Assembly: GCA_025056745.1 (NCBI GenBank)
Contig: JANWVQ010000004.1
Coordinates: 1 to 50,997, forward strand
Direction of reading: 5' to 3'
DNA: 50,997 nucleotides
From: Ignavibacterium sp.
Lineage (GTDB): Bacteria > Bacteroidota > Ignavibacteria > Ignavibacteriales > Ignavibacteriaceae
Position 1 is the first letter of the stretch, and the number at the start of each line of letters is the position of its first letter. The notes under the pieces are model-generated. The model was not told where the DNA came from. It ran no database searches and saw nothing but the letters and a program-made list of their open reading frames with translations. The position numbers and the translations under genes were made by a program. Below, piece by piece: positions 7,851 through 40,409 of this stretch.

Positions 7851-8401
7851 AAAACATATTAGTTGTTATTCCGTTTATATTTGCTTTTATTCTAGTTACT
7901 GGTGCTTTAGTTTATCTTAATGAAATTTATACAAACATATTTCAGTTTGATTTTACTCCAAGAGCAAGCCAGCAGAGCGCAAAATTAGATTCTTTGGCAA
8001 TTAAAGATTCATTGAAATTAGCAAATCAATCTCAACCTTTAGATACTTTGAAAGCATCAAAGGATACTATGAAAATTGATTTAACAAATGTGATGGCTCC
8101 TAAATCTGATACATTAAATACTTTAGCAAGTAATACTAATGAGCAAAATAATAGTATTCAAAGAGTTTCAAACAATGTTTCAAATAGTAAAGAATTGAAA
8201 GATTCTGCTTATACAGTATGGTTAAAGAAAACTGTTAAGTTAGTTGAAAATTTACCGCCTGCTCAGGCTTCTAAACTATTAAAGAATTTTTCCGATAATC
8301 AGGCGAGAGACATAATATTTAATATGAAACAAAAACAAGCAGCAAAAATCATCTCTTATCTAGAACCAGAATATGTTTATAAAATAACAAGGTTTCAATA
8401 A
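7847..8401 (+). CDS. MotE-like flagellar protein with MgtE-N domain
   Basis: The 184-residue protein has one N-terminal membrane segment (about 5-27), a Ser/Asp/Lys-rich linker and a C-terminal domain of about 55 residues (LVENLPPAQASKLLKNF...NMKQKQAAKIISYLEP). That domain repeats the pattern of the MgtE N-terminal helical domain, in which short 'A..L..M....A..IL..L' units recur. Proteins of this layout stand between fliJ and fliK in many bacteria and were named MotE where they support the stator or the export gate. The exact role here is inferred from position. It overlaps fliJ by 4 bases and fliK by 1. Confidence 0.78.
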   Translation: MKNILVVIPFIFAFILVTGALVYLNEIYTNIFQFDFTPRASQQSAKLDSLAIKDSLKLANQSQPLDTLKASKDTMKIDLTNVMAPKSDTLNTLASNTNEQNNSIQRVSNNVSNSKELKDSAYTVWLKKTVKLVENLPPAQASKLLKNFSDNQARDIIFNMKQKQAAKIISYLEPEYVYKITRFQ

Positions 8402-11400
8402 TGCTAATAAATACACTTTTTATAAATAGCCAACTTGCCAATAAAAGTATCTCAAATAAATCTGAGAATTCAGATAAGTTATTCGGCTTTTTATTTTCAG
8501 AGATAATGGCAATTGATAATAATGCAGAGAAAATAAATTTAGTTAAAGATCATCTTGGTGGAAATTTAATTGATTATAAAAGTGTTTTTATAAATTATAA
8601 GTTTGATACAAATGTAAACTTATCCGATATAAATAATGAAAACTCAATTGATCCAATTATCTCATTATCAAGCCTGTTCTTTGCAGAAAATCAAACTGAT
8701 TTGAAATTAGATCAAGTTGAAAAAATTATTTATACTCCTGAGCAATTTGTATCAAGTTTTTCTTCGTTAGTCAAATCTCTTCTTGAAAACAAAGACTCAG
8801 AACCAAATGTTGAGATAAAACTGTTCTCTAAAAATTTCATATTATCACATACTGTTGAAAAGTCCGAATTAAAAAATTTTGAAAAATTTCTATTTGAGAC
8901 GATTGAAAAAGAATCAACATTCTCAATAAGTCTAAGTGCCTTTGATAAGCAAATTTTATTTGAGATATTTTCTCAGGTAGCATCATCAGTTCTAACAAAA
9001 GAATTTTCAAACGATAACAAAGGAATTGTTGAACATAATTTACCGAATGAAACTCAACAGATATTTAATAACCAGAACTTAACTTCTAATGTTAATCTTC
9101 AAACTTCAAACAAATTAAATTTGACAGAAAAATCAAATAGTTTGAATATTAATCTTAAAGATAACTTAGGAAATTTGAAGACAGAATTTAATGTTCTTGA
9201 TAATGAAATAAACTTAAAGCAAGAGAAAGAAACATCTTCAGACAATACAAATAACTTAAATCTAAAATCATTACAAAATAACTCAGATGAAAAAGTTGAT
9301 GTAGTTCAAAAGCAAAGCACCATAACCTCTGAAAGTCCTAATAATAACGGTGGTGATAATAATTTAGTAAAGAACTTTAATTCAGATGTAATTAACAATG
9401 TAAGTGCTAATAGGACTATAATCGAATCAAAAAATAACAATCAGAATTATAATCGTGTTGATTTTAATCCTGAATTAGAAAGAGCGTTTGACAACAAAAT
9501 TAAAATTTCTGAAAAAGATAATTTGAATCAGGATTCAATTGAAAAACCTTCTTTGAAAGTATTCATTCAACAAGGTGATAGTAAAAATTCATACACAAAT
9601 AAAATCAATATTGAAAATTCTATTAATGAAATTAATCATATAATAAAAAACTCATCTGAACAAAGTATTGTTTCTTTGAAGGTAGAAGTAAAGTCAACTA
9701 ATAATAATGAAATTAAAATCAATAATTCAGAAGTAGAAAATAATTTTGAAAATCACATTGTCAGAGAAAGACAACTTCAAAACATTTTCCGAAAAATTGT
9801 TGCTCAAAACAATGAAAGCCAAAATAACACTACCTACATAAGATTGTCATCAAATTCAGTTGTTAAAGAAAATCAACCACTGACTGTAAATGCTTCTGAA
9901 GTAAATACAAATCTTCAAGAGATAAACAACTCACAATTTGAAAAATTGAATTCAGGAGAATTAGTTAATTCAAATAATCAAAAAATATCAGATGAAAGTT
10001 TCGCCAAAACAGTCAATAAAAATGAATTAGTTAAATCTTTTACTCAAGGATTAACATTTGATCCGAATAATATTCAACTATCAGAAAATAGCTCAGCAAA
10101 TAAATTTACATTACAATATAAACAACCTAACGAATCGACTGATTACTCTAGAAATGAAAAAAATATTGTAAAGAATGACTTTTCAAATGAAGAAAAATTC
10201 AATACAAACATTAGTTCTGATTTATCTCAAAAAATATCGCTGAAAAAAGAATCATTAGAAAATTTACAACTAATAGGAACTGAAACATCAGATAATATAA
10301 ACATTAATCTTAGTAATAAAAGCCAAGATGAAGTAAAACAAATTATATCATCGGATAATCAGTCAATAAAAAGTTTAGAGAATTTCAAAAATGAACCAAA
10401 CTTTAATTCTCTAAACTTAAAGGATACAAAAACAGAAATAATACAGAATGAAATGAAAAATAATATTCCAAATGAAATCGCAGAGACTAATTCTGAAATG
10501 GGTAGTGAATTAAATTTTAATAATAAACAATCATCTCATTCAATCAATGATAATAAAAATGAATTTGATTCAAATGATTTAAGGAATGAAAAACCCAATC
10601 GAACATTTACCACTATTGATAACGATGGCAATAACAATTTCGAAGACAATAATATTGAAACTATAAAAGCAACTTTTGAAAATAAAAATATTTCATCAAG
10701 AATATCAGTTGATTCTTTAGATGAAATATCAGAGAATTCGTCCAATAATAAAGTTGATGAAAATAAAAATCAGATAAATTTATCTCTCAAAAAAGATGAT
10801 CTTTCAATAAAACAAAAAGCTAATGATGAAGAAGTAATAGTTTCACAAAATACAGTCAGGATATTTAATGAAAAACCTGCCAAAAAAGTTATCAACTTAA
10901 ATAATAAGAACGAAGTATCTGTTGATGATAAAATCGTCGATCCCGATAATGATAAAAGTTATTCACCTCTCGATGAAAAGAGAAATCATATTGAGAAAAA
11001 ATTTGAAAACTCTGAAATAAAGAATATCAATCAAGAACCAAACGTTAAAACAGAGAAAACAAACAACACTGAACAGATTAAAAAAGTTATCAACGCACCC
11101 AATAGAATAGAAATTTCTACAGATGATAAAAACGTAAATCCAGATAATGATAAAAGTCATTTACCTCTTGATGAAAAGAGAAATAGTCTTGAGAAGAAAT
11201 TCGAAAACTCTGTAATAAAGAATATCAATCAAGAACATAACGTTAAAACAGAAACAAGGAACAACACTGAACAGATTAAAAACAGTATAAGTCAAGAGAA
11301 TGTTGAATTCAAAAACTATTCACAAAGTGAGAATCAGAATTTGTCAAATAATATCACTGGTTCATCAGAAATAAATAAAAAGGTTTTATCTAATATCTCC

Positions 11401-11886
11401 AGAAACAATTTTCACAACTCATTTGAAAACGATAATGATTTGATAAGATTTCTTGAATCCAAAACTGTTGAGAATCTCGTAAAAATCTTAAATGATAATA
11501 ATCTTAATATTAAAGCAGAGTTAAACAAGATTTCCACAAATAATCAAACTGTTGAGTTAAAGTTATTTCCTGAAGATTTAGGAAAAGTAAGAATTATCTT
11601 AGAAAATAATGAAAACGTGATGTCAGCTAAGATTGAAGTAAATTCAGAGCAAGCAAAAAATTTGGTAATGACAAATCTTCCTCGTCTTAAAGAGTCGCTT
11701 TCTCAAGAAGGTGTAAATCTTCAAAACTTAAATGTTCTCTTAAATAGTAATGAACAGAAAAATAACAATAATGCTAATCAAAAGAAGAAGAACAATAACT
11801 CTAAATTTCTTTTCGATGGAGAAGATAAAACAGATGAAATGAGAATTAAAGATTTAGGATATAATACAATTGAATATTTAGCATAG
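8401..11886 (+). CDS. fliK: Giant Asn/Ser-rich flagellar hook-length control protein FliK
   Basis: FliK is secreted, measures hook length and switches export specificity. The domain that marks the family is at residues about 1048-1116 (VELKLFPEDLGKVRIIL...NLPRLKESLSQEGVNLQNLNV), followed by a Lys/Asn-rich tail. The product has 1161 residues, against about 400-600 for most FliK proteins. The long middle is Asn-, Ser-, Lys- and Glu-rich low-complexity sequence and includes two 66-residue tandem units (828-893 and 894-959). Extra length in the ruler part would be expected to give a longer hook, but that is inference. The start overlaps the preceding stop (TAATG). Confidence 0.88.
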   Translation: MLINTLFINSQLANKSISNKSENSDKLFGFLFSEIMAIDNNAEKINLVKDHLGGNLIDYKSVFINYKFDTNVNLSDINNENSIDPIISLSSLFFAENQTDLKLDQVEKIIYTPEQFVSSFSSLVKSLLENKDSEPNVEIKLFSKNFILSHTVEKSELKNFEKFLFETIEKESTFSISLSAFDKQILFEIFSQVASSVLTKEFSNDNKGIVEHNLPNETQQIFNNQNLTSNVNLQTSNKLNLTEKSNSLNINLKDNLGNLKTEFNVLDNEINLKQEKETSSDNTNNLNLKSLQNNSDEKVDVVQKQSTITSESPNNNGGDNNLVKNFNSDVINNVSANRTIIESKNNNQNYNRVDFNPELERAFDNKIKISEKDNLNQDSIEKPSLKVFIQQGDSKNSYTNKINIENSINEINHIIKNSSEQSIVSLKVEVKSTNNNEIKINNSEVENNFENHIVRERQLQNIFRKIVAQNNESQNNTTYIRLSSNSVVKENQPLTVNASEVNTNLQEINNSQFEKLNSGELVNSNNQKISDESFAKTVNKNELVKSFTQGLTFDPNNIQLSENSSANKFTLQYKQPNESTDYSRNEKNIVKNDFSNEEKFNTNISSDLSQKISLKKESLENLQLIGTETSDNININLSNKSQDEVKQIISSDNQSIKSLENFKNEPNFNSLNLKDTKTEIIQNEMKNNIPNEIAETNSEMGSELNFNNKQSSHSINDNKNEFDSNDLRNEKPNRTFTTIDNDGNNNFEDNNIETIKATFENKNISSRISVDSLDEISENSSNNKVDENKNQINLSLKKDDLSIKQKANDEEVIVSQNTVRIFNEKPAKKVINLNNKNEVSVDDKIVDPDNDKSYSPLDEKRNHIEKKFENSEIKNINQEPNVKTEKTNNTEQIKKVINAPNRIEISTDDKNVNPDNDKSHLPLDEKRNSLEKKFENSVIKNINQEHNVKTETRNNTEQIKNSISQENVEFKNYSQSENQNLSNNITGSSEINKKVLSNISRNNFHNSFENDNDLIRFLESKTVENLVKILNDNNLNIKAELNKISTNNQTVELKLFPEDLGKVRIILENNENVMSAKIEVNSEQAKNLVMTNLPRLKESLSQEGVNLQNLNVLLNSNEQKNNNNANQKKKNNNSKFLFDGEDKTDEMRIKDLGYNTIEYLA
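10882..11277 (+). repeat. Two tandem 198-bp repeats inside fliK
   Basis: Copy 1 is 10882-11079 and copy 2 is 11080-11277, with equal length, no gap, and in frame (66 residues each). Both begin AAAAAAGTTATCAAC and end AACAACACTGAACAGATT; blocks such as GATAATGATAAAAGT and AAGAATATCAATCAAGAAC are kept almost unchanged. The high DNA identity at the ends shows a fairly recent duplication. Confidence 0.9.
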
Positions 11887-13066: not shown

Positions 13067-14701
13067 ATGCCATTACTAAATTCACTCTTTTCGGGTGTCT
13101 CAGGTCTAAGAAACCATCAATCAATGATGGATGTTATCAGCAATAATATTGCTAACGTAAATACAATTGGTTACAAAGGTTCTCGTGTAACCTTCAGTGA
13201 CACATTCAATAGAATCATTAGATATGGTTCAAATCCCACAGAAACTACTGGCGGTGTTAATACATTTCAAGTTGGACTTGGAATGAGAATCAATACTGTT
13301 GATAGAACCTGGAATCAAGGAACTTTTGAAGGAACTGGAGTCACAACTGATTTAGCTCTTCAAGGTCCTGGTTTGTTCATTCTTCAGAGTAACGGTGAGA
13401 GATTCTATACAAGAGCAGGAGCATTTATCTTTGATGCTGATGGTCGTTTGGTAAGTACTCAAAATGGTGCAATTGTCCAAGGTAAGGTAGCAAATAAAGA
13501 AGGATTGATACCTCCAGGAAATTATCTTGAGGACATAGTAGTTGATCCAAATATGCGTCTGCCCGCCGTTGCAACTTCTAGAGTTTCTTGGGGTGGAAAT
13601 TTGAAGAGCGCATCTCCTCTAACTAGAAGTGAAAATTATCTGCAAACTGGAAATATTAATTCCTCTATTGCAATAGGTGATTCTGTTACTGATAGTAATA
13701 CAGTTTATGATGAAAATGGTAATAAATACACATTCACAGTTACTTACACAAAGACAGCAGATAATACATACACAATGGAATATAGATTGAGAGATTCAAA
13801 TAATAACGTTGTTGTAGGTCCTACTTCTCAAACTGTCGTATTTGATGGAACAACTGGTCAATTACTTACTGTTAATGGTCAACCACCTGCAGTAATACAA
13901 ATTCAAAATGCTCAGCTCGGTATTAATTTTAATTTTAATATGACTGGAATTACTCAAAATAACTCAACAACTACAATAGCATCAACAGTTGACTCTAATA
14001 GACAGCCAACAATTATAACTGGCTCTGTGACAATATTCGATTCCCTTGGAAACTCTCATATATTGACTATAAAATATACTAAAGTTGCAGACAATAGCTG
14101 GAGATGGTCTGCAAGTGTTCCAGAAAGTTCAGGAACTTTAAGTGGTAATGCAGGAAGTATATCATTCAATCCAGATGGTTCGATAAATGCAATAATTCCA
14201 AATCCACCCGTCTTAACTTTTACGCCTACTGGAGGTGCAAGTGCTCAAAATATTATTTTGAATTTTGGTGAAGGATTTAATGGAATTACACAAACATCTG
14301 CAAATTCCGTTGTATCTGCATTGAGCCAAGATGGATCTGCAGCTGCTTCTTTATCAAATCTTAGCATAGATAAATATGGTTACATAGTTGGTGTATTTAC
14401 AAATGGTCAATCCCGTCAATTAGCACAAATTATGATTGCAACATTTCCAAATTTGAATGGTTTGATAAGTGTTGGAGAAAATTTATATACTGTTAGCGCA
14501 AATACAGGAGATCCATTGATTGGCGAGCCAGGTGAATCAACCGGAACTACAATTCAATCTGGAGCACTAGAGCAATCAAACGTTGATTTATCTGAGGAAT
14601 TTACAAGAATGATAGTTTCGCAAAGAGGTTTTCAAGCAAGTGCAAGAGTAGTAACTGTTTCTGATACTCTGTTGCAGGAAATTACAAATCTTGTAAGATA
14701 A
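13067..14701 (+). CDS. flgE: Flagellar hook protein FlgE with two tandem D2-like modules
   Basis: FlgE polymerises to the hook. The product has 544 residues. The N-terminus is SGLRNHQSMMDVISNNIA then NVNTIGYKGSRVTFSDTF, and the C-terminal helix holds SGALEQSNVDLSEEFTRM, both typical. In the middle, residues about 205-300 (VYDENGNKYTFTVTYTK) and about 315-411 (IFDSLGNSHILTIKYTK) are two related copies of the hook D2 (FlaE-type) domain. A copy of the same module lies in FlgL. AAGGAGG stands 5 bases before ATG 13067, so the start is clear. A strong terminator ends the operon after it. Confidence 0.95.
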   Translation: MPLLNSLFSGVSGLRNHQSMMDVISNNIANVNTIGYKGSRVTFSDTFNRIIRYGSNPTETTGGVNTFQVGLGMRINTVDRTWNQGTFEGTGVTTDLALQGPGLFILQSNGERFYTRAGAFIFDADGRLVSTQNGAIVQGKVANKEGLIPPGNYLEDIVVDPNMRLPAVATSRVSWGGNLKSASPLTRSENYLQTGNINSSIAIGDSVTDSNTVYDENGNKYTFTVTYTKTADNTYTMEYRLRDSNNNVVVGPTSQTVVFDGTTGQLLTVNGQPPAVIQIQNAQLGINFNFNMTGITQNNSTTTIASTVDSNRQPTIITGSVTIFDSLGNSHILTIKYTKVADNSWRWSASVPESSGTLSGNAGSISFNPDGSINAIIPNPPVLTFTPTGGASAQNIILNFGEGFNGITQTSANSVVSALSQDGSAAASLSNLSIDKYGYIVGVFTNGQSRQLAQIMIATFPNLNGLISVGENLYTVSANTGDPLIGEPGESTGTTIQSGALEQSNVDLSEEFTRMIVSQRGFQASARVVTVSDTLLQEITNLVR

Positions 14702-32937: not shown

Positions 32938-33383
32938 CATACGAGAAACTTATTGCGCTAATGCAAACTCAGAAAAACAAATTAACTGATCTTTTAGATA
33001 CATTGAAGTCAATGCAGAAAGCAATAATTGAGCAAGAATATCAGGACTTCAATAGAACAATTGAACTACATCAAAGAATTTTATCTGACATAAGGAATAT
33101 TGAGAAGGATAGAACTAAATTAATTATTTCCATAATTGGTAATCAGTCATACTCAAAAGAAAAACTTCCGCAAATGATTTTTAACGCTTTAAAAGTTAAA
33201 GATAACAACTTAAAGAAAAAGTATTTGGATTTGAGAGATGAAATAACCAATCTGATAAAGGAAGTAACCAGAATAAATTTTCAAAATATGTATTTGATTG
33301 ACAATTCAAGAAAATTAATTAAAGATTTAGTTGTTACCATTTATGGCTCAGCAAATCAAAAAATATTAGATAAGAAAGTATAA
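32934..33383 (+). CDS. flgN: FlgN-like chaperone for hook-filament junction proteins
   Basis: The 149-residue helical protein begins with LIALMQTQKNKLTDLLDTLK and has a long coiled middle, the FlgN pattern. FlgN carries FlgK and FlgL to the export gate. The place directly before flgK and flgL (one base overlap with flgK) is the strongest support, since FlgN is poorly conserved. Confidence 0.8.
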   Translation: MTYEKLIALMQTQKNKLTDLLDTLKSMQKAIIEQEYQDFNRTIELHQRILSDIRNIEKDRTKLIISIIGNQSYSKEKLPQMIFNALKVKDNNLKKKYLDLRDEITNLIKEVTRINFQNMYLIDNSRKLIKDLVVTIYGSANQKILDKKV

Positions 33384-34741
33384 TGGCAATTACAAAAGTT
33401 TTTGACATAGCAAACAGAAGTTTGGCTGTCTATCGTAAAGCGTTGGATATTACAAGTCATAATATCGCAAACGCAAATAATCCTAATTTCTCCAGACAAA
33501 AAGTACATTTTGCTACAGATTCATCAGATTTAAGTGCTGGATTAGTTTGGGGAAATGGCGTCAAAATTGCCGATGTTCGACGTTACAGAGATAGTTTTAT
33601 TGAATCGCAAACCCGTATTATGAATTCTAAGTATAATGATAACAAAAGACAAAGTGAATTAATAACAAACATTGAAAAATTATTTTCTGAGCCATCTGAA
33701 TTAGGTTTAGGAAATATGATAAGCAAGTTCTTTAATTCTTTTAGTGAACTTGCAGCTTCACCCACTTCAAATCCTCTGCGTACAAACGTGGTAAATGCAG
33801 CAACTAATCTCGCAGCTAAAGTAAATAACTTAAATAAATCTCTTAATGATATAAGAGAAAATATTAGAATGGAATTTGATGATAAAGTTAAACAATTAAA
33901 TAAGATTTTAGTTGAAATTCACCAAATCAATAAAGACATTAAATCAAATCAAGTAAACAAAATTTCTATTAATGATTTGCTTGACTCAAGAGATAAGTTA
34001 TTAAATGAGCTAAGTAAACTTGTAAACATCCACGTAACAACCTCTTCAGATAATACTGTTAATGTCTCCATTGGTGGTTCGTTTGCAGTGGATTCTTATC
34101 ACGTAAGAGAATTTGAGATGAATAATGATAATGGAGTATTGTCTTTAAGATTAAAGGGTGCGACTAATTCCGTAATACTGACTGATGGAGAAATGAATGC
34201 TCTGGCTACAGTTCATAATCAAAAAGTTACTTCTTATCGTCAAAAAATAGATAAAATTGTTAGCACGATCGTAAATGAGGTAAACAAGATTCACTCTACT
34301 GGTTATTCTAAAACAACACCGGCACAGACTGGTTTGAATTTCTTTGAGGATTATCGAGATGGTATATTAAGAATTAATCAAGTGATTGTTAATAATCCAA
34401 ATATGATTGCAATCTCAGCAGATGGAACTCAAGGGAATGGTGATCTCGCTTTAAGAATTAGTGAGCTAATGGATATGAAACTTATTGATAACTCAACTAT
34501 TATGGAATACTACACCACTTTAGTAAACGAAATTGGAAATGATGGATTGCTAAACAAAAATTTAACTGAATCAAGCCAATTGGTACTCGATCAACTTGAA
34601 AATCAAAAACAATTAAATTCAGGAGTATCGCTTGATGAAGAGATGACTAACGTAATTCAATTTCAGAGATCCTATGAGGCATCAGCTAAATTAATAAAAG
34701 TATCTGATGAATTATTAAAGACTATCTTGGAGTTAGTATGA
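33383..34741 (+). CDS. flgK: Flagellar hook-associated protein FlgK (HAP1)
   Basis: FlgK is the first hook-filament junction protein. The 452-residue product has DIANRSLAVYRKALDITSHN then IANANNPNFSRQKV at the start and, at the end, SGVSLDEEMTNVIQFQRSYE, both typical. The NKI...LLDSRDKLLNELSKLV line in the middle is also typical. It overlaps flgL by 4 bases (ATGA). Confidence 0.95.
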   Translation: MAITKVFDIANRSLAVYRKALDITSHNIANANNPNFSRQKVHFATDSSDLSAGLVWGNGVKIADVRRYRDSFIESQTRIMNSKYNDNKRQSELITNIEKLFSEPSELGLGNMISKFFNSFSELAASPTSNPLRTNVVNAATNLAAKVNNLNKSLNDIRENIRMEFDDKVKQLNKILVEIHQINKDIKSNQVNKISINDLLDSRDKLLNELSKLVNIHVTTSSDNTVNVSIGGSFAVDSYHVREFEMNNDNGVLSLRLKGATNSVILTDGEMNALATVHNQKVTSYRQKIDKIVSTIVNEVNKIHSTGYSKTTPAQTGLNFFEDYRDGILRINQVIVNNPNMIAISADGTQGNGDLALRISELMDMKLIDNSTIMEYYTTLVNEIGNDGLLNKNLTESSQLVLDQLENQKQLNSGVSLDEEMTNVIQFQRSYEASAKLIKVSDELLKTILELV

Positions 34742-35988
34742 ATCGAGTAACAGATGCATACGTTTCAAATCATTACATCAACAGTATCAATAGATTAAAA
34801 GGATCAATAAGTCTCTTGCAAAGACAAATTGCAAGTGGAAACTTAATTGAAAAACCATCTGACTCTCCAAGTAAGTCAGCCATTTTGATTAGAAATAATG
34901 ATGTATTAAATCAAATAAATACAAACTTAAATAATATTAAAACTGGACTTTCATTTCTTAATCAAACGGTTTTCTCATTAGAAGTTATTCAATCTGAATT
35001 GTTGAATGTTATAGGAAAGTTGACAGATATTGAGGATCCATTAAAACAAAAAAATCTAAATAACTATGCTGACCAATTCGAACAATCTTTAAAAACTATT
35101 TTAGATGTAGCAAACTCAAAAGCTGATGGTAAATATGTTTTTGGTGGAACAGATCTATCTGAAAAACCATTTCGAGTCTCTTCTGATAATCAAACAATTA
35201 TTCAAAATCCGAATTCAACTGGAAAAGTAAATGCAAAAATTTCAAGCGGAATCACTGAGAAAATAAATCTTACTGGTGTTGAAGTTTTTGGAACCATACT
35301 AAAAGGTAATGGAGCTTTTGATAAGAATACCTCGATTGGATCAATAAAAACTGTTAATCAAAATGTTTATGATAGTGCTGGTAATCAATACAATCTACAG
35401 TTAAACTTCGAGAAAGTTGCTCAGAATAAATATAATCTTACTTACACTATAACAGATTCAAATAACAATAACATTTTTACTTCTCCAACTCCACAAGTCC
35501 TTGATTTTGATCAAAATACAGGTTATTTGTCTAAAATTAATGGAAAGGCTCCATCAGAGATTAACATTTCAGTTCCGAACAACAATATTAATTTCTTTTT
35601 AGATTTAACAAATCTTACTGAAGGAAATTCTGATTCATTTTATTTTGAATTGAATCAGCAAATGGACATCTTCAATTTGATGAAAAATATTATCAGAAAC
35701 TTGAGGAATGGAATTTTGCCAACTGAAGAACAAAAAGAACAAGTACACAGATTTCACGTTAGAGTTTTAGAAAAATTATCTGAGATTGGGAATATTATAA
35801 ATCAATTCAATTCTTTTGAGAATATGCTTAATCAACAATCTTTACAGATTCAGGATTTGAATCAAGAAGTTGGTGGTGTTGACGTTGTTAAATCAATAAT
35901 CGAATTGCAAAACAAAGATTATCTTCTTCAAATAACTCAAAAAATCGCAGCATCTATCTTACCTAAATCATTGTTGGACTACCTATGA
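34738..35988 (+). CDS. flgL: Flagellar hook-associated protein FlgL (HAP3) with an inserted hook-protein D2-like domain
   Basis: FlgL is the second hook-filament junction protein. The start MNRVTDAYVSNHYINSIN, the LQRQIASGNLIEKPSDSPSK line and GKYVFGGTDLSEKPF are typical, as is the C-terminal flagellin-like helix. The product has 416 residues, longer than the usual ~300. The extra part, residues about 205-298, contains VYDSAGNQYNLQLNFEKVA, ITDSNNNNIF and VLDFDQNTGYLSKINGKAP, which align with the D2 modules of FlgE in this same locus. I judge this a domain insertion of hook type. Confidence 0.88.
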   Translation: MNRVTDAYVSNHYINSINRLKGSISLLQRQIASGNLIEKPSDSPSKSAILIRNNDVLNQINTNLNNIKTGLSFLNQTVFSLEVIQSELLNVIGKLTDIEDPLKQKNLNNYADQFEQSLKTILDVANSKADGKYVFGGTDLSEKPFRVSSDNQTIIQNPNSTGKVNAKISSGITEKINLTGVEVFGTILKGNGAFDKNTSIGSIKTVNQNVYDSAGNQYNLQLNFEKVAQNKYNLTYTITDSNNNNIFTSPTPQVLDFDQNTGYLSKINGKAPSEINISVPNNNINFFLDLTNLTEGNSDSFYFELNQQMDIFNLMKNIIRNLRNGILPTEEQKEQVHRFHVRVLEKLSEIGNIINQFNSFENMLNQQSLQIQDLNQEVGGVDVVKSIIELQNKDYLLQITQKIAASILPKSLLDYL

Positions 35989-36761
35989 TTAAAAAGCTTG
36001 GAAGTATAAACGGATTAATTTTAGGAATACTTTCGGTATTCGGTGCATTTATATGGGAAGGAGGATCACTAAACGCCTTATTTCTAATTCCGCCAATAAT
36101 AATTGTCTTTGGAGGAACTTTTGCTGCTGTTATCATTGGATTTGGGCTAGAAAATTTTCTAAAAATATTCCAGCTGATCAAAATTGCTTATTTCCCGAGA
36201 CAATACAATCATCAACACATTATCGATGCTTTAGTTAAACTTTCTTTCAAAGCGAGAAAAGAGGGACTGCTTTCAATTGAAAGTGAAATAAACAATATTG
36301 ATTTTTACTTTTGTAGAAAACTATTAAGAAATGCCATAGATGGGACAGATCCTCAAATGTTAATGGAACTTGCTGAAGTTGAGATGAAAGCAATTCAAGA
36401 AAGACACCATTCGAATATTTTTATATTTACCAAGATGGGAGGTTACGCTCCTACGATGGGAATTTTAGGAACAGTTATGGGTTTGATTATGGCACTTTCA
36501 CAAGCAGGTAGTGAACCAACTGTTCTTATTAAAAGTATAGCAACAGCATTTATTGCAACTTTATGGGGAGTTTTTTCAGCAAATTTAATTTGGTTACCAA
36601 TAGCAGATAGATTGAAAAAATGTCATCAAGACGAGAAACAATTAATGTTAATGTCTCTTCAGGGAGTGATAGCAATTCAAAGTGGAGATATACCGATTCT
36701 GGTGAAATCCCGTTTGATAAGTATGCTACCTCAAAAAGAGCAAGAATTAGTCTACAGTTAG
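35985..36761 (+). CDS. motA: Motor stator protein MotA, first copy
   Basis: The 258-residue protein has four membrane segments; the third, YAPTMGILGTVMGLIMAL, and fourth, IATAFIATLWGVFSANLIW, are the MotA marks. The N-terminus (GSINGLILGILSVFGAFIW) is of the Bacillus MotA/MotP style rather than the enteric style. It works as a stator channel with MotB. It overlaps flgL by 4 bases and the next gene, motB, by 142 bases. Confidence 0.93.
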   Translation: MIKKLGSINGLILGILSVFGAFIWEGGSLNALFLIPPIIIVFGGTFAAVIIGFGLENFLKIFQLIKIAYFPRQYNHQHIIDALVKLSFKARKEGLLSIESEINNIDFYFCRKLLRNAIDGTDPQMLMELAEVEMKAIQERHHSNIFIFTKMGGYAPTMGILGTVMGLIMALSQAGSEPTVLIKSIATAFIATLWGVFSANLIWLPIADRLKKCHQDEKQLMLMSLQGVIAIQSGDIPILVKSRLISMLPQKEQELVYS

Positions 36762-37426
36762 ACGAGCCTGAAGAGTTATTTCAAGAGTCTGCGGAAAAGG
36801 ATAGATACTTAATCACCTACGCAGATTTAATAACACTTTTATTAGGTTTATTTATTCTTTTATATACTGCTTCCAATCTTGACATTCAAAAGTATGAAAA
36901 GATGTTGGGTGCTTTTAGCGATGTTTTTGGAACTTCAGCAAAGATTAACATAAGCAACCCTCAGGAGCCTTTAATTTTAACTCCGATTGACAGATTGAAG
37001 ATTGAAATGAATCAATTAATTTCGGAGAGTGAATTTTCAAATTCTATTAGAATGGAGGAGAACGAGAGGGGTATTGTGATTCACATATTAGAAAATATTG
37101 TGTTCACACCTGGTTCAGCTGAATTAAAAAATACATCCAAAATTGTTTTGCATAGGATTGCAAATATTATTAAAAAATTGCCTAATGATATCAGAGTTGA
37201 AGGACATACAGATAATATTCCTATTAATACCCCAACGTTTCCTTCTAACTGGCATCTATCAGTCGCAAGGGCTTTGAACACAGCTTATTATTTAATAAAT
37301 AATGAAGGTGTTCCTCCAGATAGAGTTTCAATTGTTGGAAATGCTGAATATAAACCTATTGAGTCAAACGAAACTGCTTATGGTCGAGCTTTAAATAGAA
37401 GAGTAGATATTGTAATAATAAAATAA
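36620..37426 (+). CDS. motB: Motor stator protein MotB, first copy, with 142-bp overlap into motA
   Basis: The product has 268 residues with one membrane segment (about 64-85) starting YLITYADLITLLLGLFILL; D69 is the proton/sodium carrier (D32 in E. coli). An OmpA-like peptidoglycan domain follows (VEGHTDNIPINTPTFPSN, ALNRRVDIVIIK). The only in-frame ATG, GTG or TTG upstream of the membrane segment is ATG 36620, so the N-terminal ~47 residues are coded inside motA in another frame. The membrane segment resembles MotB/MotS of Bacillus. Confidence 0.85.
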   Translation: MSSRRETINVNVSSGSDSNSKWRYTDSGEIPFDKYATSKRARISLQLDEPEELFQESAEKDRYLITYADLITLLLGLFILLYTASNLDIQKYEKMLGAFSDVFGTSAKINISNPQEPLILTPIDRLKIEMNQLISESEFSNSIRMEENERGIVIHILENIVFTPGSAELKNTSKIVLHRIANIIKKLPNDIRVEGHTDNIPINTPTFPSNWHLSVARALNTAYYLINNEGVPPDRVSIVGNAEYKPIESNETAYGRALNRRVDIVIIK

Positions 37427-38763: not shown

Positions 38764-39630
38764 ATGTTTGTAATTATTGGAATAGTAGTAGTTCTCGGGG
38801 CAGTAATTGGAGGCTTCATTTTCGCAGGTGGAAATGTTGTTTTGCTTATTCAACCTGCTGAGTTTATAATCATAGTAGGTGCAGCTGTTGGAAGCGTTCT
38901 GATTTCTTCCCCGTTGAGTTTATTAAAAAAGATTTTTGGGTCAATACCTTTATTATTTAAGGGCTTTCAAATCTCTAAACAAGATTATCTTGAGCTTCTT
39001 AAAGCACTTAATGATCTGTTTTTATTGGCTCAAAGAGATGGCTTATTAGCTATTGAAAAACACATTGAAAATCCTAAAGAAAGTGAAATTTTATCTCAAG
39101 CGAAAAATTTTGTCAACAATCATCACGTCGTTACATTTTTCTCTGATACAATGAAAGTTATGCTTTCTGGTGGTGTCCCGCCTCACGAACTCGAAACACT
39201 TATTGATGCTGAAATAGAAACTTTCGAATTAGAGGGTAAACCAATAACAAATACAATTTCGAAAGTCGGAGATGCTTTCCCTGGATTGGGAATTGTTGCA
39301 GCAGTGTTGGGAATCATTGTTACTATGAGCTCGATTAATAAAGGTGCTGAATATGTTGGAATGCACGTAGCTGCTGCTTTAGTAGGAACGTTTTTAGGAG
39401 TGTTATTGTCTTACGGTATTGTAGGTCCGATTGCTTCTAATTTAGAATTAATTCACGAAAGTGAAAAAAGATATTATGAGACAATAAAAGCTTGTATTGT
39501 TGCTTATGCAAAAGGTAATCCTCCAATAGTTGCAGTTGAATTTGCAAGAAGAACAATTTTCAGTGACTATCGTCCATCATTCTCTGAATTAGAAAACTTC
39601 ATTAGAGGAAAAGGAGCTGAGGGTAAATGA
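38764..39630 (+). CDS. motA: Motor stator protein MotA, second copy (enteric type)
   Basis: The 288-residue protein has the MotA layout, with VIIGIVVVLGAVIGGFIFAGG at the start, GDAFPGLGIVAAVLGIIVTM and a tail with AVEFARRTIFSDYRPSFSEL, as in the enteric proton-type MotA. It differs clearly from the first MotA in this operon. It overlaps the second motB by 4 bases. Confidence 0.94.
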   Translation: MFVIIGIVVVLGAVIGGFIFAGGNVVLLIQPAEFIIIVGAAVGSVLISSPLSLLKKIFGSIPLLFKGFQISKQDYLELLKALNDLFLLAQRDGLLAIEKHIENPKESEILSQAKNFVNNHHVVTFFSDTMKVMLSGGVPPHELETLIDAEIETFELEGKPITNTISKVGDAFPGLGIVAAVLGIIVTMSSINKGAEYVGMHVAAALVGTFLGVLLSYGIVGPIASNLELIHESEKRYYETIKACIVAYAKGNPPIVAVEFARRTIFSDYRPSFSELENFIRGKGAEGK

Positions 39631-40409
39631 AATCCAGTGAGCAACAAGCCCCGATAATAATTAAAAAAGGCAAGCACGGACACGGTCATCACGGTGGCGC
39701 TTGGAAGGTTGCTTATGCAGATTTTGTAACAGCTATGATGGCTCTTTTTATAGTTCTTTGGGTTTTAGGGCAAGATAAAAAAGTTATTGAAAGTGTTGCA
39801 AGCTATTTTAGAGACCCAATTGGATTCACTGAAAAATTAAGAGTTATAACACCTGGAAATTCTGAAATGCCCTTTGAAGCAGATACACTTAATATAAATA
39901 TTAAAGAACAGCTTAGAGAATTAGAAATTCAAAGATTACAGAGCCTTGGTGAATCACTAAAACAAGAACTAAAACAAAATCCTGAATTTCAGGAACTTGC
40001 AGATCAGATAAACATTGAAATAGTAAATGAGGGACTTAGAATTGAGCTTACTGAGTCAACAGAAAATGTATTTTTTGAGGTTGGAACTGCCAATTTAAAA
40101 CCAGAAGCTGCAAAGATTATTCAGAGAATGGCAGCAAGTTTTCAAAAATTACCTAATAAAATCATCATCGAGGGTCATACAGACTCAAGACCTTATATTC
40201 AAGGAGAAAAAGGTTATTCTAATTTTGAATTAAGCGCCGAAAGAGCAAATGCAACTAGAAGAACTTTAGTAACTGCTGGTCTTGATCCAAAAAAAATTGA
40301 TGAAGTTCGTGGCTATGCTGATACAAGACTGAGAGATCCAAATGATCCTTTTGCTGCAGTTAATCGCAGAACAAGTTTGATTATTAAATTTGAAACCGAG
40401 TCTCCATAA
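39627..40409 (+). CDS. motB: Motor stator protein MotB, second copy (enteric type)
   Basis: The 260-residue product begins with KKGKHGHGHHGGAWKVAYAD then FVTAMMALFIVLWVLG, as in enteric MotB; D32 has the same number as the ion-binding Asp of E. coli MotB. The OmpA-like domain has IIEGHTDSRPYI and AAVNRRTSLIIKF. It is a full stator partner for the second MotA. A His-rich N-terminal tail (HGHGHH) precedes the membrane segment. Confidence 0.94.
   Translation: MKSSEQQAPIIIKKGKHGHGHHGGAWKVAYADFVTAMMALFIVLWVLGQDKKVIESVASYFRDPIGFTEKLRVITPGNSEMPFEADTLNINIKEQLRELEIQRLQSLGESLKQELKQNPEFQELADQINIEIVNEGLRIELTESTENVFFEVGTANLKPEAAKIIQRMAASFQKLPNKIIIEGHTDSRPYIQGEKGYSNFELSAERANATRRTLVTAGLDPKKIDEVRGYADTRLRDPNDPFAAVNRRTSLIIKFETESP

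Follow-up and report, generated by a model that had tools for sequence, protein, structure and literature searches.

An FlgE-type D2 domain in the accessory slot of the flagellar junction protein FlgL of Ignavibacterium and its relatives

The hook-filament junction protein FlgL (HAP3) encoded in the window, the whole analysed stretch of 50,997 nucleotides of contig JANWVQ010000004.1 from Ignavibacterium sp., carries an outer domain that is homologous to the D2 domain of the hook protein FlgE. Taken as a whole, this protein is probably an ordinary FlgL, with a D0/D1 core common to other FlgL proteins and a copy of the FlgE outer D2 domain lodged in an accessory slot, where it would act as an additional outer collar at the junction. 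The hook class with a beta D1 domain and the junction/filament class with a helical D1 domain are structurally distinct groups (PMC6155364), and no description of an FlgE_D2 domain in FlgL, or of a domain move between these two classes, was found in the open-access papers searched.

The flgL gene (34738..35988, + strand, 416 aa) lies 3' of flgK, the open frame of which (33383..34741, +) directly precedes it within an extensive cluster of flagellar genes. The same cluster also contains two stator gene pairs of the MotA/MotB type (35985-37426 and 38764-40409, +). The NCBIfam FlgL model TIGR02550 covers residues 3-416 with an E value of 2.4e-36 and 125.9 bits, just below the curated cut-off of 127.2, and a model of the whole protein matches solved FlgL structures in the PDB with Z scores of ~20-22 (best 3pwx, 5yti and 9go6, Z ~22). 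These structural matches to FlgL chains revealed the helical D1 fold in four segments. The N-terminal D0/D1 part (residues 1-187; 34738..35298, +) aligns across all short and long FlgL proteins and is modelled as helices 4-32, 44-97 and 104-125, followed by the strands of a beta hairpin (145-175) and a helix at 180-184, while the C-terminal D1/D0 part (residues 309-416; 35662..35985, +) is modelled as helices 311-323, 330-378 and 383-415. Between the two lies the FlgE-D2-type domain (residues ~188-308; 35299..35661, +), the edges of which were set by comparison with short FlgL proteins; the initial annotation had located it correctly but slightly too narrowly, at 35350-35631.

That this domain is of the FlgE D2 type, as initially proposed, is borne out by profile matching, identity to FlgE, structure prediction and a domain tree. 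FlgL residues 194-300 match the Pfam family FlgE_D2 (PF07559) with 34.5 bits against a curated cut-off of 22.7 (E 3.5e-8), and in BLASTP residues 192-298 share 37% identity with residues 195-300 of the FlgE of the same window (E 5e-17). This 544-aa hook protein (flgE, 13067..14701, +) does possess the two tandem D2 modules ascribed to it, with two PF07559 matches totalling 101.9 bits. A likeness to both modules had been suggested; it stands for the first (D2a, residues ~186-305; 13622..13981, +), which BLASTP and the domain tree identify as the closest relative of the FlgL domain in the window, whereas the match to the second (D2b, residues ~306-430; 13982..14356, +) is weak, covering 41 residues with an E value of 4e-4. 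The D2b module, delimited in the FlgE alignment and forming a clade with support of 100/96 in the domain tree, is the counterpart of the sole D2 in outgroup FlgE proteins of ~425 aa. Many outgroup Ignavibacteria have such a single-D2 FlgE of ~425 aa, compared with two D2 modules in the window FlgE, and two separate groups of D2a were found among FlgE proteins.

The hook-length ruler FliK is also encoded in the window (8401-11886, +) as a very long, Asn-rich protein of 1161 aa with a Flg_hook domain at residues 1042-1119. Its gene contains an in-frame tandem repeat of 198 nt (10882-11277) in two copies that are 83% identical, and such repeats could alter hook length.

Structure prediction gave the same identification of the FlgL domain. 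An AlphaFold model of residues 188-308, computed from 21 aligned FlgL inserts with FlgE absent and no templates, reached a pLDDT of 94.6 for the isolated domain. Its strong PDB matches were all FlgE or hook entries (17 in number, Z 10.2-12.8), the next being a designed protein at Z 5.4; no FlgL or FlgK chain was listed among these structural matches, which is compatible with a distant relation. A profile of the insert searched against PDB sequences likewise retrieved FlgE sequences only. The fold is that of FlgE D2, and the two domains are homologous. Pfam alone undercounts such domains: a genome-wide PF07559 search skipped the FlgL domain of genome G096, to which a direct scan of the protein assigned 25.3 bits, and Pfam is blind to the insert of protein L119.

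In alignments with relatives, the domain corresponds to a clean in-frame gap, the long FlgL proteins having ~120 residues where the short ones have 2-15. The flanks of the insert align to Legionella FlgL at the point where the latter bears its own extra domain, and the D2 domain of Xanthomonas FlgL was described as inserted between two helices (alpha3a/alpha3b), with Bacillus FlgL lacking a D2 (PMC6155364). The main insertion site coincides with the D2 slot already known to vary among FlgL proteins, the equivalence with Xanthomonas resting on that published alpha3a/alpha3b description (PMC6155364). What had been regarded as a non-standard FlgL architecture is new in its filler, an FlgE D2, but not in its site. 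Nor is a length of 416 aa abnormal in itself, against an expectation of about 300, because FlgL length varies widely in general, with 317 residues in Salmonella, 410 in Burkholderia and 750-950 in Campylobacter and its relatives (PMC5691160). A plasmid search returned seven FlgL proteins, of which one, from Aquicella, has an insert in the same slot. Among Bacillota, some long FlgL proteins (L218-L220 and L226) hold other insertions in or near the slot that gave no FlgE D2 profile match.

The domain is not confined to the genome of the window. The phyla surveyed were Bacteroidota and Bacillota. By length, 90 distinct FlgL proteins fell into two sets of 411-422 and 291-323 aa. Within Ignavibacteriales, proteins with the domain measure 411-418 aa and those without it ~291-319 aa; outside this order, the insert-bearing L119 and L213 have 422 and 425 aa, respectively, and a Clostridium FlgL (L135) is long for another reason. 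In an insert-free FlgL tree, one clade (100/99) of 72 sequences contains 45 long and 27 short proteins, although the long fraction is no estimate for the order and is probably biased upwards, since FlgL proteins were sampled by similarity to the long FlgL of the window. A single gain at the base of this clade implies eight losses, or five when weak forks are collapsed. The domain has been lost at least five times in Ignavibacteriales, once inside a genus that includes both a long (G041) and a short (G054) form.

The most likely role of the domain, on our analysis, is that of a putative accessory outer collar at the hook-filament junction. In the Salmonella junction, eleven FlgL subunits make up a layer that is sandwiched between FlgK and the filament and points its D2 domains outward, and a mechanical buffering role has been suggested for the junction (PMC12221982). 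If the domains face out as in Salmonella, the junction would here be ringed by a collar of eleven hook-type D2 domains. Such a collar could bring adjacent FlgL subunits into additional contact with each other and/or with the FlgK layer and might thereby stiffen or bulk the joint. This FlgK layer would here be D2-less: the 452-aa FlgK of the window was recognised by FlgK_D1 (PF22638, 170 bits), and when it was aligned pairwise with the 547-aa E. coli FlgK, most of the sequence opposite the E. coli D2 region proved to be missing. FlgK open frames are mostly ~452-469 aa in both long- and short-FlgL genomes, which indicates that the FlgL domain is no simple substitute for FlgK D2. The domain is considered accessory rather than essential because related lineages with flagellar genes have lost it cleanly. 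As short-FlgL genomes retain flgE, flgK and flgL, the domain may matter little.

Neutral retention is a serious rival to an accessory collar, even if we hold it to be possible rather than likely. Under this explanation, the slot tolerates any compact beta domain, and an FlgE D2 was copied into it by chance recombination between genes of one cluster, thereafter drifting and being lost repeatedly. The clean losses, including the one between congeners, fit such a history, as do the other fillers found elsewhere in the same slot (PMC6155364) and the ~2-3 times faster evolution of the insert relative to the FlgL body, a rate expected for a weakly constrained surface. Against drift, the domain is under purifying selection: its dN/dS among congeners is 0.08-0.15 (four pairs with estimable dS), compared with 0.05-0.08 for the FlgL body (pairs with estimable values), both being rough because dS is near saturation, and its fold residues are conserved. 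It has also been kept in 45 of the 72 FlgL proteins of the clade, with the sampling bias noted above, and gained more than once.

The evidence for repeated gain came from a tree of 147 D2 domains from FlgL and FlgE. The FlgL inserts of Ignavibacteriales (type I) form one clade (97/91), and these inserts form a joint clade (100/99) with the FlgE D2a domains of the same order (FlgE_aI); the FlgL domain and FlgE D2 share common ancestry. The type II inserts of L119 and L213 group instead with the D2a of other Ignavibacteria families (FlgE_aII; 99/88). A single clade for all FlgL inserts was rejected in a 50-row subset with a p-AU of 0.0014, the groups for this test having been predefined from the BLAST results and the domain tree, so that it was not planned blind; support for one origin of type I comes from the 147-domain tree, since the 50-row subset split these inserts in two groups. 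In two further Ignavibacteria families the FlgL inserts belong to another D2 group, and one of these families has the insert at a different site: the type II inserts of G096 and G746 (the latter classed by eye, outside the tree) lie in the same main slot as type I, while that of L119, the protein of G677, is located one helix further downstream. There has been at least one further acquisition outside Ignavibacteriales, and probably there were two. This difference in site favours three capture events overall, whereas the clustering of both type II proteins of the domain tree (98/91) would also fit two captures with a shift of site. A bolder reading makes the hook outer domains an exchangeable module in Ignavibacteria, from which FlgL captured an FlgE D2 at least three times because eleven hook-type D2 domains carry the outer contact shell of the hook across the junction and grade the stiffness between hook and filament; we regard this full version as unlikely.

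The initial annotation had also suggested that a hook-like outer domain perhaps smooths the step from hook to filament or lets the junction share surface properties. As a rival explanation, FlgL would keep the domain in order to mirror, or bind directly, the D2a domains of the FlgE of the same genome, and the clear homology of the FlgL domain to FlgE D2a would be expected on that basis. A contact of FlgK D2 with FlgE, and perhaps with FlgL, has been proposed (PMC5691160); with FlgK D2 absent here, the FlgL D2 might reach down toward the hook. Despite this, no sequence matching with the own hook was detected. The insert is inherited vertically with the FlgL body, whose distances it tracks (Mantel r 0.78), and once shared history was removed it showed no co-variation with the D2a of its own genome (partial Mantel r -0.06, P 0.70). 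The own FlgE was the best match of the FlgL insert in one of 21 genomes, and a search for gene conversion between the insert and the own FlgE gave no sign of it. In G096, an FlgL with a type II insert coexists with an FlgE that has one D2, and in solved junctions the FlgK layer separates FlgL from FlgE (PMC12221982). A matched hook surface ranks below the accessory collar and, on this evidence, is doubtful.

Parsimony points to a probable transfer in the direction from FlgE to FlgL. Donation of an FlgL D2 to FlgE, which would have created FlgE D2a, appears improbable: it draws some support from the compatibility of FlgE_aI as a single clade with the data (p-AU 0.23), but a D2 is present in every FlgE examined, including those of outgroups and E. 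coli, and D2a is also found in short-FlgL genomes. In the 147-domain tree the type I inserts lie inside FlgE_aI, with weak backbone forks (84/79 and 85/87). It is highly improbable that the insert is the usual D2 beta domain of Xanthomonas-type FlgL proteins and has become FlgE-like by convergence. Although the slot is the same and the flanks are similar in the FlgL proteins of Legionella and Aquicella, the significant sequence homology to FlgE D2 largely refutes this idea. The Aquicella insert gave no comparable match to FlgE D2 profiles, no relation of the domain to E. coli FlgL or FlgK was found by profile comparison or hhalign, and in a survey of 129 Bacillota genomes, 105 of which had an FlgL above cut-off, three full-length FlgL proteins of ~415 aa and six other long frames gave no D2-profile match, the E. 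coli FlgE control being positive. An assembly or gene-prediction artefact, conceivable for a draft genome of 185 contigs whose nearest named relatives are Ignavibacterium metagenome assemblies, can be dismissed as the same FlgL architecture recurs in each of the five congeners that were searched, in ~45 distinct FlgL proteins and in two genomes of one contig each (G005 and G030).

These repeated gains and losses make natural pairs with and without the domain available, down to a single genus, so that the role of an FlgL outer domain becomes testable by comparison; the domain boundary that evolution has already used also allows a test by clean deletion.

Compared with known systems, the FlgL proteins of Xanthomonas (5ZJ0/5ZIZ) and Legionella (5YTI/7C7Z) share the same D1 core (Z ~20-22) and bear an extra domain at the same place. 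The Xanthomonas D2 has, however, been reported as similar to FlgK D2 (PMC6155364), whereas that of the window FlgL is an FlgE D2 by both sequence and fold. Bacillus cereus FlgL (5ZIY) and the short Ignavibacteriales FlgL proteins are orthologous and alike in their core, but their slot is empty. Campylobacter FlgL (9GSX, 750 aa) also carries large additional outer domains, in which nothing matched the FlgE-D2-type insert significantly. The domain itself finds its closest counterpart in FlgE D2 (PF07559; 1WLG, 6K9Q, 6NDT and 8Z5Y), which belongs to the same sequence family and superimposes with Z scores of 12-13 and an rmsd of 2.1-2.5 Å over 113-120 residues; there, the host protein is a hook with a beta D1, while the FlgL copy sits beside an alpha-helical, filament-type D1.
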